Notes: a model not told the origin generated them from the letters alone. 64,000 nt of DNA from Chitinophagaceae bacterium PMP191F (GCA_001302245.1 LGYU01000001.1:186001-250000); one strand, 5' to 3'. Shown: positions 51,633-56,984, counted from the stretch's first letter. A program made the numbers and translations.

Positions 51633-54410
51633 TTATCGGCGGGAAACAGTACCAGCTTTATTTTTCTTCCAGTATTTTCTGCCTGCAATAAATGCACCCA
51701 GTGTACCAGCCATCAGTAAAAGATATTGTAACCAGGAATATGTTTCATTGATTATTACTGCATCTGACTTACCTGTTAATACTGTAGCTGCCCAATAATA
51801 GGGAAGTGTTGCTTCGCGTGATGGGTTCTGTAAAAACTCCAGTTTTGCTTTCTGTAGTGCAATGTCTGCAGGCAAACCTTTGGTCAGTTGTTTGTAAAAC
51901 AATTCTGTCAGCCTGTAGGTAGGGCCATTATCAACAGCCCATAAATTTATAACTGCTGCCGGAATACCGGTAGCAGCAAATGCACGGTTAAAACTGAATA
52001 CACCTTCACCATGATAAAAGTTACCATTACCTGTTTCACAGGCCGATAATACAATAAGACGGGTTATCGGTTTATTTTCCGGGATCAGCTCTGACAGGTA
52101 TAATACGGAATCAGAAAAATAAATAACAGGTTCACCATGTTCGCTGCTATCTGCAGCGTGCGTATACAACTGGATGATATTGTATTGCGGAAAATTGGCC
52201 AGGAAGTTTTTACGCGATGCGTTGCTGAAAAGAAAATGATGCGGTTGATTAAAATAACGATTGATCCTGACCAGTGATTCATCACTGCCGGGAAGATCGG
52301 ACAGGTCTGTATAATGCGTATACCGCACTGGTGCCATGCCCATCAGGGAATTGCCGGATATGTTGGGTGATGATTCACCCAACAGGTAGCGTGCGGAATA
52401 CGTATAGCTTACCGCATGGTTGCGGATAAAGTAATTATCCTGTGCGGTATTATCTGTGATCAGTGATTCAAATGGGAAATAACTGCCATCCGGTGAAATG
52501 ATGACACGTTGCTGCGGTATTTGTTTTTCACCAAAAAGTAACAGGTACAGGTTATACGCTGTTTGAATATAACCCCGGTGATCTTTATTTAGCAGTACAG
52601 CATCAGAAAGATAAGTGTTGTAGCGGGCAACAGTATTTTCATAATCTCTTTTATCAAGTCTTCGCAGTGTGGTATTGTTGTGCATTGCCAGTAATACATA
52701 TACCGCACTGTCTCCATTAAATATTTCTACCAGCACACGATCCTTGTCCAGTAATTGTTGTTGTGCCTGTTGCAGTGTAATAAAAGAAGTATCAATATAG
52801 CGTTGGTAGTAAGCAGGGTTTTTTGTTTTGATCTGTTGCTGTAACCTGTCCAGCTTACGGGTATTGTTGAACAGTGATTCTGCTGTTCCCTGTTGCAGGT
52901 TGCCTTCATGCTGTTCTTTTTTCAGGTGTATAATGGTGCGTTGCAATTGTGCCTGTTCCAAAATGTTTTCCTGGTTCAGGAAATGTTGCTGCAATAACTG
53001 ATCATCCAGTATTACTGCCCTGTTCTTTTCAAAAAAATAAAATGCAGTAGTGACATCACCGGTCAGGTATGCCGCTTCAATAGCCTGCTCGTACAGGCGG
53101 CGTGAATCATTGCGCCAGAAAAGGCGCGAAGCCAGTTCTGATTGTTCCAGGCGTATTCTTGCCAGTACGCGATCTGCTGTTTTGTATACCTGCATGGCGG
53201 CTGCAATAGCATGGGCTGAATGTGTTTGTTTATACATTTTCAGCCAGGCATTGCCCTTGTCAATCATCAGTGCCGTGATGTACCAAACCCTGTCGTACTG
53301 TGTAATAAAACCCTGCGGCAGGTTGGCAAATTTTATTTCATTCATGCCTGGTTCTACCTGGTCAAATGCTTTCTGGAAAAAGTAAAAGGCAGAATCATAC
53401 TGGCCGGCTTCCGTATAGGCGCCGGCAATATTGCTCAACAGGTTCAGCGCTTCCTGTGCTTCTTCCATGGTTTGACGTGCCGGAGCTTTTACAAATTGCA
53501 ATGCCCTGAAATAATAGGAGAGTGCTTTGCGCGGATCTTTATGATGCTTGTAATACAGGTAGTAGCCTGTGTTTTCAAGCACCTGCAAACAGCGGATGCT
53601 ATCGTGTTTGTTTACATTTTTAAGGGCCGTGGAATAATATTGAAGGGCCTGGGCAAAATTTCCACGTCCCAGTTCCACACGGCCAGACTGTTCATAAATG
53701 TTTGATGCCAGTTCAGGAATAGTACGCCGGTATAGCGCTGCCTTACCGGAAAGCAGTTTTTCAGCCGCTGTAAAATTGTTTAATTCCAGTTCTGCATTGA
53801 TCTCGAAATTGAGAAAGATGCTATAATAATGTTGTGTATCGTTGACCAGTGTAACCGCGTCCTTTTCACCAATACGTGCATATTCAATACAGCGGATATA
53901 ATCACCAATATCAAACAGGTATTTAACCCGCGTCCACAATGCGTACAGATAAAAGGGGTTTACTATGGACTGTTTTGTTGCAATGTCAATACAATTTTCC
54001 AGGGCCCTTACTTTTTCTGCCGGCTGGTTCAGTGCGTCATAATATCCTGCCAGTTTATAATAACATTTTACCAGGTTGCCGGTGTGTACCGGCGGATGGC
54101 CTTTTTGAGCGTTGACCAGTGTGATGGCTTCTTTGGTAAAACGTATAGCATGCAGAAAGTTTTCTTTATCAGCATACAGGTCAGCCATTTTCTGTAGCAT
54201 CAGCAAGTGAACAGAATCATGCAGATGATCATATTGTGCAATGTGCTGGTAACAGGAGCTCAATGCTTTTAATTGTTCATCAGCAGATATGCCGGTAGTA
54301 TTCTGTACCAGTGCGGAGACCTGTTTCCAGAAAGCATCCTGCCCGGGATCGGCCCGGGCAGGGAGAGTTGCCAGTACTAAACAATAAAATGTTATAAGAG
54401 TTTTATTCAC
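51633..54410 (-). CDS. Exported TPR-CHAT caspase-like protease with C-terminal membrane anchor
   Basis: 925 aa, GTG start at 54410 (no usable ATG nearby; the next Met would lose the signal). Signal peptide NKTLITFYCLVLATLPARA. Residues about 40-500 are helical tetratricopeptide repeats (for example AQALQYYSTALKNVNKHDS), then a coiled-coil linker to 570, then a CHAT domain (about 590-890) with the catalytic pair His751 (IIQLYTHAADSS) and Cys791 (LIVLSACETGNG). A last membrane span (YLLLMAGTLGAFIAG) precedes a basic tail KYWKKNKAG. Signal peptide plus basic C-terminus predict TPR and CHAT domains in the periplasm, held to the inner membrane. It ends a four-gene unit with a sigma factor; its target is unknown. 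Confidence 0.9.
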   Translation of the reverse strand: MNKTLITFYCLVLATLPARADPGQDAFWKQVSALVQNTTGISADEQLKALSSCYQHIAQYDHLHDSVHLLMLQKMADLYADKENFLHAIRFTKEAITLVNAQKGHPPVHTGNLVKCYYKLAGYYDALNQPAEKVRALENCIDIATKQSIVNPFYLYALWTRVKYLFDIGDYIRCIEYARIGEKDAVTLVNDTQHYYSIFLNFEINAELELNNFTAAEKLLSGKAALYRRTIPELASNIYEQSGRVELGRGNFAQALQYYSTALKNVNKHDSIRCLQVLENTGYYLYYKHHKDPRKALSYYFRALQFVKAPARQTMEEAQEALNLLSNIAGAYTEAGQYDSAFYFFQKAFDQVEPGMNEIKFANLPQGFITQYDRVWYITALMIDKGNAWLKMYKQTHSAHAIAAAMQVYKTADRVLARIRLEQSELASRLFWRNDSRRLYEQAIEAAYLTGDVTTAFYFFEKNRAVILDDQLLQQHFLNQENILEQAQLQRTIIHLKKEQHEGNLQQGTAESLFNNTRKLDRLQQQIKTKNPAYYQRYIDTSFITLQQAQQQLLDKDRVLVEIFNGDSAVYVLLAMHNNTTLRRLDKRDYENTVARYNTYLSDAVLLNKDHRGYIQTAYNLYLLLFGEKQIPQQRVIISPDGSYFPFESLITDNTAQDNYFIRNHAVSYTYSARYLLGESSPNISGNSLMGMAPVRYTHYTDLSDLPGSDESLVRINRYFNQPHHFLFSNASRKNFLANFPQYNIIQLYTHAADSSEHGEPVIYFSDSVLYLSELIPENKPITRLIVLSACETGNGNFYHGEGVFSFNRAFAATGIPAAVINLWAVDNGPTYRLTELFYKQLTKGLPADIALQKAKLEFLQNPSREATLPYYWAATVLTGKSDAVIINETYSWLQYLLLMAGTLGAFIAGRKYWKKNKAGTVSRR

Positions 54411-54477
54411 TGGCTTGCTGTTGCTATGTTGACCAAAAAGTGCTTTACAGGTTGTGTAAAAGGGTGCGTTGCATCAC

Positions 54478-54927
54478 TTATTGTGGTTTGGCCGGCGTAG
54501 GACCGGAAGGCGGAGCGCCAATGAGGTTATAGGTCAGTACATTGGGATCGCTTTCGCCGTCGTTGCTATCGGTAAGAGGCATGGAATTGCTCATAACGCT
54601 CAGGGCATTCATGGTTTGCAGGGCTGCAACTGTTTTTTTCAGGGTTCTGCCTGTTTTCTGCGTATTGATGTATACTTCTACGGTAGGAGCATTTCTGTTC
54701 TCTTTATCTTTTACGATATTCCATTTTAAAAGCTGGGTGCCTTTGGGAATATATTTATTCTGGCTGTAATACTGTTGCAGCAGTTTGTCAATGATCTTGA
54801 TCTGGTAACCAATGGCTTTCTGCAGTGAGTTATAATTTCTTTTGTCGATCAGCAGTTGCGCTTTATCTTCTTTTAATGACCTGCTTACCCCGTTTGATGG
54901 CAGTACTGTGCCATTTTTTGTACTCAT
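54478..54927 (-). CDS. Unknown 149-aa soluble protein in the sigma/CHAT operon
   Basis: No signal peptide or membrane span. The N-terminal third is helical (LLIDKRNYNSLQKAIGYQIK, then IIDKLLQQYY); a beta segment TVEVYINTQKTGRTLKKTVA follows; the last 35 residues are acidic then Pro-rich (GESDPN; GAPPSGPTPAKPQ). I do not recognise the family. It lies 74 bases after the membrane TPR gene and 67 bases before the CHAT gene on the same strand. It could be a substrate, adaptor or inhibitor for the system. Confidence 0.75.
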   Translation of the reverse strand: MSTKNGTVLPSNGVSRSLKEDKAQLLIDKRNYNSLQKAIGYQIKIIDKLLQQYYSQNKYIPKGTQLLKWNIVKDKENRNAPTVEVYINTQKTGRTLKKTVAALQTMNALSVMSNSMPLTDSNDGESDPNVLTYNLIGAPPSGPTPAKPQ

Positions 54928-55001
54928 AACAAGTGTTTTTTACATTATAAATGATGATTACGAAAACACAATAACAAGTGACCCCGGAAAGCAGCGAAGT
55001 A

Positions 55002-55733
55002 CTAGAATTGCTTTAACCACTTTTCAGCAATCTCTTTTGCTTCAAGATTCTTTGCTACCACTTCCTGCAGCAGTGAATGAGCTTCCTGCCGGTCGTGCGG
55101 GCCGTTGCGTTTCAAAAGGGTAAGGGCGTGCAGAAATTTTCCCCGGTTGGCGTAATCGCCGGTATTGTTTTCTGCCTGTTTGAAATACGCAATAGCTGAG
55201 TCGTATTGTTGCAGGCGCAGGGAAACAATCCCGGCATAAATTTGTATGTTGGTAGCGCTGGAATCGGCCTGCGCCAGTTTTTTAAACTGTTCAAGTGATG
55301 CAGGCAGTTTACCTTCATTGTACAGGTTGCGACCGATATCAATACTGTCTTTATGGGCAGCCATTTTCACATTCATACTTTTCAACTCAGTGTTAATATA
55401 ATCATCTGCCATTTGTTCCAGGGAGGGTCTGTTGCTGAACAGGCTGATGCCAATGAACAGGGCGGCAATGACCGCTGCAGCAGCCAAATAGGGCCATAGT
55501 TTCCTGATAACCGTCTTTTTACCGGCGACGGTCTTGTGCTGTTCGTATAATTCACGGAAACGGTTTTTGCGCTCCTCTTCCAATTGCTGACGCATTACCT
55601 GCAATGTGCTGGCATAAAAGGCAACTTCTTCGGCAAAGTCGTTGTCCGTCTCAACACGTTGTTCAAACGCTTTCAGCGCTTCGGGCGACAATGTTCCGCG
55701 AAAATAATCATCTATGTATTCAAGGTTTTGCAT
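55002..55733 (-). CDS. Anti-sigma-like membrane protein with periplasmic TPRs
   Basis: 243 aa. Residues 1-80 are cytoplasmic, helical and charged (LEYIDDYFRGTLSPEALKAF; QRVETDNDFAEEVAFY), resembling the short N-terminal sigma-binding segments of Bacteroidota anti-sigma proteins without a zinc motif. A single membrane span (81-100, PYLAAAAVIAALFIGISLF) is followed by three or so TPRs (SLEQFKKLAQADSSATNIQI; YDSAIAYFKQAEN). The start lies 3 bases after the sigma stop, implying coupled translation and a matched pair. Confidence 0.85.
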   Translation of the reverse strand: MQNLEYIDDYFRGTLSPEALKAFEQRVETDNDFAEEVAFYASTLQVMRQQLEEERKNRFRELYEQHKTVAGKKTVIRKLWPYLAAAAVIAALFIGISLFSNRPSLEQMADDYINTELKSMNVKMAAHKDSIDIGRNLYNEGKLPASLEQFKKLAQADSSATNIQIYAGIVSLRLQQYDSAIAYFKQAENNTGDYANRGKFLHALTLLKRNGPHDRQEAHSLLQEVVAKNLEAKEIAEKWLKQF

Positions 55734-55736
55734 TGG

Positions 55737-56324
55737 TTACGCAGATTTGTACTGGCGACGTAATTTTTCCAGGCATCTTAACCGGCTTGTTTTCACTACA
55801 TCGGCTGTTTTATATTCCATCATATTGGCTATCTGTTTATCCGAATTACCTTCTGCTGATAACATCAGTAACTGGCGGCAGGCATCTCCCAGGCCTTCCA
55901 GTTTCTGGCGCAGTATGGCAAGATCTGTTTGCTCCACCAGTTTCTGAATAACAGACTGGGCATTGTCTGCCAGGTGAAACAGCCCACTGATAGCGATTGT
56001 CTGGTGTACGCTATTCTTGTTAGTCGTTTTTTTCCTGAAAAGGTCAACACATTTGTTATGAAAAATCTGGTAAAGCCATGTTTTTAGTGAGGAAAGCCCT
56101 TCAAATGAACCACTTGCAATTTTTTCAATAGCCGATAAAATGGTATCGGAGTAGGCATCGAATGATTCCTGTTCTGTTAAAGAATGCTTTAGCATGCCCT
56201 GCTGTATAAAATAGATGTAGGTCGAGAATAATTCTTCTTCTCCCTTGCGTTTCTGAGCCCCGTATTGCTGAAGATTATCAATTATTTGCCGGTCTCTGTG
56301 AGAAGATGACCTGGTATCGTTCAT
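55737..56324 (-). CDS. RNA polymerase sigma-70-family (ECF) factor
   Basis: 195 aa. Region 2 contains SLKTWLYQIFHNKCVDLFRK, and region 4 has the helix-turn-helix MLSAEGNSDKQIANMMEYKT followed by SRLRCLEKLRRQY. The sequence is distant from FecI factors in the window, and the partner gene is a TPR membrane protein, not FecR. First gene of the four-gene CHAT unit; it probably controls its own operon (inference). Confidence 0.92.
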   Translation of the reverse strand: MNDTRSSSHRDRQIIDNLQQYGAQKRKGEEELFSTYIYFIQQGMLKHSLTEQESFDAYSDTILSAIEKIASGSFEGLSSLKTWLYQIFHNKCVDLFRKKTTNKNSVHQTIAISGLFHLADNAQSVIQKLVEQTDLAILRQKLEGLGDACRQLLMLSAEGNSDKQIANMMEYKTADVVKTSRLRCLEKLRRQYKSA

Positions 56325-56657
56325 AAGCAGTTTTTCATTAGTTGTAAGATACTAAAAAACGTACCAAAAAAATTTCTCCTGTTTTGTTTCCCTGCCCTGT
56401 TACTGTTACGACTTATATATACAACCACCCGGTACAGTTGTCGCATTATCTGTGTTACCGGTAATGCGTTTTTTCATAACTGCGTGAGTAAGAGTTTGTA
56501 TGGAAGTGCGGACCGGCAGATAGAAACCAGTGTCAGTACGGCCAGTGCTGAAAGAATTTGACAAACAGCAACCCCGGTTGTCAGGCATCATTCAACGCAG
56601 GCCAATACATAACACTTCAGAATACCTGGATAATTAATATTCCCGTAAACATCTGTT
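56325..56657. other. Regulatory gap upstream of the sigma/CHAT operon
   Basis: About 330 bases. On the minus strand the leader of the sigma gene has a T-run and TATCTTA, but no clear TAnnTTTG pair. A 61-codon minus-strand ORF (56406-56591) has no support. The words TGCGGACCGGCAG at about 56507 and about 56687 mark an imperfect local duplication. Confidence 0.45.
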
Positions 56658-56984
56658 ATGAAAAAAACAGGCAGTATTTCATGGAGAATGCGGACCGGCA
56701 GGAAGAATTCTAAAAAAGCTGCTGAAATAAACAGGGTGAATCACGGTTGTGCGAACCTGCTAAAACGTTACGAACTGTATGTAGACACTGTAATGACAGG
56801 CACCGGTATTACTGCCGATGGAGCTGAAACAGGCAGCTCCGGCCGGAAGCGTGTTACCCAAAAAGATATTACGCATAGCGATGAACTGAAAATGGTATGG
56901 GGAAGCATCATTACTGTTGCCCTGTACGAATGCCGGCGTCTGGTGATCTGGGGCCATAATGTTGCATCGGGCAAACGGCATTAA
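56658..56984 (+). CDS. Hypothetical 108-aa basic protein, doubtful
   Basis: MKKTGSISWRMRTGRKNSKK start, overall basic, no signal peptide, one weakly hydrophobic stretch (VWGSIITVALY). It lies alone between the sigma operon and a small coiled-coil gene, overlaps the partly duplicated sequence and has low-grade codon usage. It could equally be non-coding. Confidence 0.3.
   Translation: MKKTGSISWRMRTGRKNSKKAAEINRVNHGCANLLKRYELYVDTVMTGTGITADGAETGSSGRKRVTQKDITHSDELKMVWGSIITVALYECRRLVIWGHNVASGKRH

Follow-up and report, generated by a model that had tools for sequence, protein, structure and literature searches.

Does the TPR-CHAT protease encoded beside an ECF sigma factor in Chitinophagaceae bacterium PMP191F control this sigma factor, or is the protease controlled by it? 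The question is raised by a four-gene locus in a stretch of 64,000 nucleotides (GCA_001302245.1, LGYU01000001.1:186001-250000; hereafter the window, meaning the whole stretch that was analysed). The ORFs were found at the coordinates given in Table 1, and the first-pass annotation, which had placed all four genes on the minus strand with gaps of 3, 74 and 67 bases, was reproduced. A precedent exists in type III-E CRISPR systems, where the CHAT protease Csx29 relieves the inhibition of a sigma factor, with Csx30 and CASP-sigma as partners (PMC10028731).

Table 1. Features of the sigma factor/CHAT protease locus, in window coordinates
Feature	Position	Strand	Basis or remark
ECF sigma factor, 195 aa	55737..56324	-	TIGR02937 (2.9e-15); orthologs 41-66% identical
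TPR anti-sigma-like protein, 243 aa: cytoplasmic helical N-domain, one span, periplasmic TPRs (predicted)	55002..55733	-	Anti-sigma models (weak), structure model
149-aa soluble protein, Pro-rich tail	54478..54927	-	Tentatively placed in a family of small proteins that evolves fast; slot usually holds a subtilase
TPR-CHAT protease, 925 aa: signal peptide, His751/Cys791, C-terminal membrane anchor (predicted)	51633..54410	-	Pfam and relatives
Promoter-like motif TGTTTCC-N17-CGAC within anti-sigma coding region	55200..55227	-	Towards 149-aa and CHAT genes; motif end 273 bp before 149-aa start
Same promoter-like motif upstream of sigma, divergent (reads away from sigma)	56385..56412	+	In relatives ahead of secreted protein of about 180 aa

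The sigma gene is of the ECF type, as TIGR02937 was matched over residues 40-191 with 56.3 bits (cut-off 42.9), Sigma70_r2 was found above the Pfam gathering score, and the protein has sigma2 and sigma4 regions and neither sigma1 nor sigma3. In the NCBIfam scan, the CASP-sigma model scored this protein lower than the generic ECF models did. TPR domains were matched in the second and fourth genes (Pfam/NCBIfam). The N-terminal domain encoded by the second gene showed a weak match to the anti-sigma model NF052375 (6.9e-7, below the cut-off of the model), which was also matched by 11 of 18 orthologs (best 5.6e-9, all below curated cut-offs). The structure model of this protein (mean pLDDT 88) has helices at residues 2-12, 17-29 and 31-67, followed by a span at about 80-100 and C-terminal TPRs, in agreement with the layout of a cytoplasmic helical N-domain, one span and C-terminal TPRs proposed earlier. 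Moreover, a strongly conserved juxtamembrane stretch was found, in which Y112, M124 and D129 are invariant in the orthologs. A PDB profile search with the protein gave no match, and a fold search with its model returned TPR-like helical proteins only, none below E 0.001, so that the fold search is no test of the anti-sigma domain.

The fourth gene encodes a CHAT protease (clan CD) with a His/Cys dyad, identified by the domain PF12770 (133 bits, 1.4e-38, Pfam). The dyad named in the first-pass annotation, His751 and Cys791, is invariant in all 91 full-length CHAT relatives, and hydrophobic stretches matching the signal peptide and the C-terminal anchor that had been read from the window protein were each found in 85 of these 91. 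Predictions across the relatives are consistent with the earlier topology, in which the CHAT protein and the TPRs of the anti-sigma-like protein both face the periplasm. As a separate observation, two tandem CHAT genes were seen at a locus without the slot gene (L030:6621-12492, the same locus as L090, Parafilimonas terrae), and a similar double CHAT was seen at L173. A C39-like peptidase gene lies just 3' of the CHAT gene at L025:6437-7684.

The slot between the anti-sigma and CHAT genes is the variable part of the locus. In most relatives it holds a protein of 420-630 aa, and Peptidase_S8 (PF00082) was found in 45 of the 46 long slot proteins tested. Some of these subtilases carry N-terminal lipoprotein or hydrophobic signals, while about half carry neither by a simple test. 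In the clade of the window, this position is taken by a small soluble protein whose tail is Pro-rich, and in some genomes (L023, L027, L060, L175) the subtilase and the small protein are both present. The slot of the window itself holds a small protein and not a subtilase, and an S8 gene preceded by the motif described below is found elsewhere in the same genome. The 149-aa protein gave no match in Pfam, NCBIfam and PADLOC scans, its AlphaFold model was unusable (mean pLDDT 44) and its identity to the small slot family is 16-23%; since it is joined to this family mainly by the layout of the locus, it is only tentatively grouped as a divergent member. By eye, the small slot proteins resemble the lipoprotein subtilases in the N-terminal part of the latter, but homology found no support in an hhalign comparison (probability 17%).

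Sigma orthologs were found in 15 of 150 family genomes, that of the window included, and both the anti-sigma and CHAT genes adjoin the sigma gene in all 13 Chitinophagaceae genomes (12 and the window) with a contig long enough around sigma to be evaluated. A contig scan with the CHAT protein of the window alone gave no loci; a sigma profile was used instead and identified 80 named loci in Chitinophagaceae, Pedobacter, Spirosoma, Larkinella, Dyadobacter and others, several of them from genomes also in the family sample. CHAT lies within the sigma locus in 67 of the 73 evaluable named loci (of the 80, six truncated at contig ends and one without a score were set aside), and in five of the other six a CHAT of the same family is found elsewhere in the genome, frequently accompanied by an S8 or small protein of its own. 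A sigma-bearing MAG, G700, has no CHAT of this family, and its genome may be incomplete. The same TPR, (S8) and CHAT partners accompany a diverged sigma lineage (L164, L166, L167, L173), and further S8-CHAT or small-CHAT modules exist with no sigma gene alongside. These counts dispose of the concern, raised with the first-pass annotation, that sigma and CHAT might rarely occur together; its description of the module as CRISPR-free also holds, as the orthologous loci contain sigma, TPR, slot and CHAT genes only. As judged from sequence, an ECF sigma factor, a one-span TPR anti-sigma-like protein, a variable slot and a predicted exported, membrane-anchored TPR-CHAT protease form a module that is conserved in Bacteroidota.

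Evidence on the direction of control comes from a promoter-like motif. TGTTTCC-N16/17-CGA(C) was found upstream of sigma in 38 of 88 regions (0.58 expected in shuffles), with the spacing of the two boxes almost always 16 or 17, and 1.63 Mb of sequence contained 103 matches where about 6 would be expected, many of these loci being related. Boxes and spacing resemble those of ECF promoters such as that of B. subtilis SigX. Moreover, the motif tracks the sigma factor: it was found in 10 of 15 sigma-bearing and 16 of 135 sigma-lacking family genomes (p=8e-6) and, in a chosen set, in 10 of 12 genomes with sigma and 0 of 10 without. Where the locus is split, the motif stands ahead of the slot or CHAT genes that have moved (L022, L042-L044, L172, L174, L175). 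Judged by the orientation of the motif before the slot and CHAT genes, the copy upstream of sigma reads away from sigma, and its interpretation as a promoter for sigma autoregulation was therefore rejected.

A further copy sits within the anti-sigma coding region, often in the 3' half, and reads towards the slot and CHAT genes. The embedded copy of the window has a weight-matrix score of 23.1 and ends CGACTCA, its last bases being weaker than in most. Could this copy be a by-product of protein conservation (VSLRLxxYDKA), with sigma regulated by the TPR protein and the proteases co-transcribed in an ordinary operon from a promoter of sigma? The short intergenic gaps, a housekeeping-type promoter seen in the sequence ahead of sigma and the conservation of the TPR protein itself would fit such an operon, but the codons at the exact motif positions are far from the usage of the genes and co-vary between the boxes. 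With kinship among the genes ignored throughout, the Val-Ser codons are GTT TCC in 24 of 29 genes (about 4% expected from the genes' own usage), TAC GAC accompanies GTT TCC in 21 of 24 cases against 19 of 54 (p=2e-5), and the motif codons rank 2, 3, 4, 8 and 14 of 290 residue columns in an unbiased whole-gene scan; the column at the top, Ser130, probably reflects an artefact of AGY/TCN codons. Tandem anti-sigma pairs occur in five Larkinella-type loci, and there the motif is found only in the copy adjoining the subtilase (5/5). The strict motif was seen in none of the 17 anti-sigma genes that lack visible protease genes immediately downstream (a few of these 17 are cut off by contig ends), whereas 21 of the 77 genes followed by protease genes have it (p=0.01, kinship again ignored). 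In its strict form the motif is absent from the remaining 56 of the 77 linked loci, which suggests a different signal, or a different position of it, in the more distant members; by weight matrix, about 31 genes carry the motif. Taking into consideration that the motif also precedes protease genes that have split off, the ordinary operon appears improbable.

The genome of the window contains six strict motif sites, two of them in the locus. Two others lie inside the coding regions of housekeeping genes and are taken as chance. The remaining two precede a gene for a 1201-aa S8 subtilase (L189:234-3839) and, at 64-67 bp, a gene whose 304-aa product belongs to no known family (L191:2911-3825; L189 and L191 are contigs C5 and C27), which are predicted to be the only clear remote targets in this genome. 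In one Spirosoma, the motif also stands ahead of another S8 gene. The divergent gene upstream of sigma encodes, in relatives, a secreted, weakly PepSY-like protein of about 180 aa, and a gene of this kind with the motif was also found away from sigma (L240). A search of the window's genome for a relative of this protein gave distant ones only (24%), and the divergent motif of the window is followed by no convincing gene, only by a weak 108-aa ORF at 56658-56984.

Other motif sites were seen in single genomes or groups of relatives. In one case, a Niastella-like genome (G086), the motif (L249:677-707) is found 85 bp ahead of the leading gene in an operon for a contractile injection system, which looks complete and has Pvc16_N, tail sheath and baseplate hub genes (L249:792-8354 and L250); strict chance sites in a genome of this size are roughly estimated at about 0.5. 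At L098:3417-4133, the motif stands ahead of a gene for a peptidoglycan-binding and C70 papain-like protein, which, together with the C39-like peptidase mentioned above, may represent further proteases around the regulon. In Pedobacter (L073, L074, L105, L113 and L116, near 13500), the motif is found about 60 bp before a gene for a small protein of 130-142 aa, several kb downstream of sigma.

The conserved promoter evidence places the protease genes downstream of sigma, as its probable targets, and would thereby reverse the main arrow of the first-pass annotation, which had run from the protease to sigma. With a probability of roughly three in four, the locus would represent an ECF sigma/anti-sigma switch with an envelope protease module as its main conserved output. 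In the resting state, sigma would be held by the N-domain of the TPR membrane protein, while the periplasmic TPRs would sense an envelope signal. Released sigma, with RNA polymerase, would read TGTTTCC-N16/17-CGAC, a recognition suggested by conserved association, and would drive expression of the slot gene (for a subtilase, a small Pro-tailed protein or both) and of TPR-CHAT, often from the embedded promoter, as well as of the divergent secreted protein in many relatives and of a few genes elsewhere, in the window's genome presumably the separate subtilase. CHAT could then act on the periplasmic side of the inner membrane, to which its predicted topology would tether it.

Anti-sigma factors are subject to regulated proteolysis in the DegS-RseP and PrsW systems, and a protease that faces the periplasm next to an anti-sigma factor in the membrane could likewise serve here as a site-1 protease; CHAT differs in being a cysteine protease, and a site-2 protease is absent from the locus. 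If CHAT were to cut the periplasmic part of the TPR anti-sigma factor and free sigma, this would be positive feedback, because sigma would also make CHAT, and would be compatible with the output switch proposed above. The two proteins are predicted in the same compartment, the invariant juxtamembrane residues could mark a recognition or cut site, and Csx29/Csx30/CASP-sigma provides the precedent of a CHAT protease relieving sigma inhibition (PMC10028731). CHAT genes are, however, at times found apart from sigma and anti-sigma, preceded by the motif like target genes, S8-CHAT and small-CHAT modules occur away from sigma, and the possibly incomplete G700 bears sigma without this CHAT; such cleavage thus seems conceivable but rather unlikely. 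A little more doubtful is a self-amplifying envelope switch in which CHAT, made from the promoter in the anti-sigma gene, would cut the anti-sigma factor in the periplasm and lock sigma on. Such a switch would be a CRISPR-free likeness of Csx29/Csx30/CASP-sigma, modulated by the subtilase or by the small protein of the slot. The service of CHAT proteases in type III-E CRISPR (PMC10028731) and the patchy distribution of the module (15/150 family genomes) could also point to defence or cell suicide in the manner of type III-E CASP, with CHAT as an executioner upon infection. PADLOC gave no match among the window proteins, though, and the genes conserved alongside encode subtilases and secreted proteins, with CHAT itself predicted to be exported, which makes a role in defence very improbable.

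The comparison with type III-E CASP extends to a TPR-CHAT protein encoded with an ECF-like sigma factor and an inhibitor-like protein, and to own-locus genes among the sigma targets, which are predicted here (PMC10028731). By contrast, the present locus has no Cas7-11 or other CRISPR part, its CHAT is, by prediction, exported and held at the membrane, whereas Csx29 belongs to an RNA-guided complex in the cytoplasm, its anti-sigma-like protein spans the membrane and carries TPRs, and a subtilase is usually present. The CHAT region gave no match to PDB sequences even at E 10, and hence no sequence link to Csx29, and no Csx30-like protein was found among the window proteins with Pfam, NCBIfam and PADLOC; by its Cas7-11, CRISPR array and Csx29/Csx30/Csx31, a type III-E CASP system is a different entity. 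The locus resembles those of class I anti-sigma factors of the RpoE/RseA type (PMC7406223) in that the sigma gene is directly followed by a gene for a one-span, anti-sigma-like protein with a predicted N-terminal helical domain, but differs in its periplasmic TPR sensor, in the adjoining CHAT/S8 proteases, apparently targets, and in the embedded promoter. Based on these sequence comparisons, the system is probably an ECF/anti-sigma pair of a known kind with a putative new type of sensor, a predicted new output and an unusual embedded promoter. A literature search, with most subscription journals and all preprints outside its scope, did not find the module described, in line with the earlier statement that no system of this make-up was known.

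To our knowledge, no role has been established for most CHAT proteases that do not belong to CRISPR systems. The present locus would place one in a defined regulon, with a sigma factor, a putative membrane anti-sigma factor, a predicted promoter and a short list of candidate targets, and its role can therefore be tested by reporter and deletion. The predicted regulon is repeated in Chitinophagaceae, Sphingobacteriaceae and Cytophagales. A promoter within the anti-sigma coding region, apparently held by codon choice, would be an unusual wiring of a sigma switch to its output. Moreover, class I anti-sigma domains adjoin only 6% of Bacteroidetes ECFs, and the predicted TPR-type protein would add to the few anti-sigma factors that have been recognised for ECFs of this phylum (PMC7406223).
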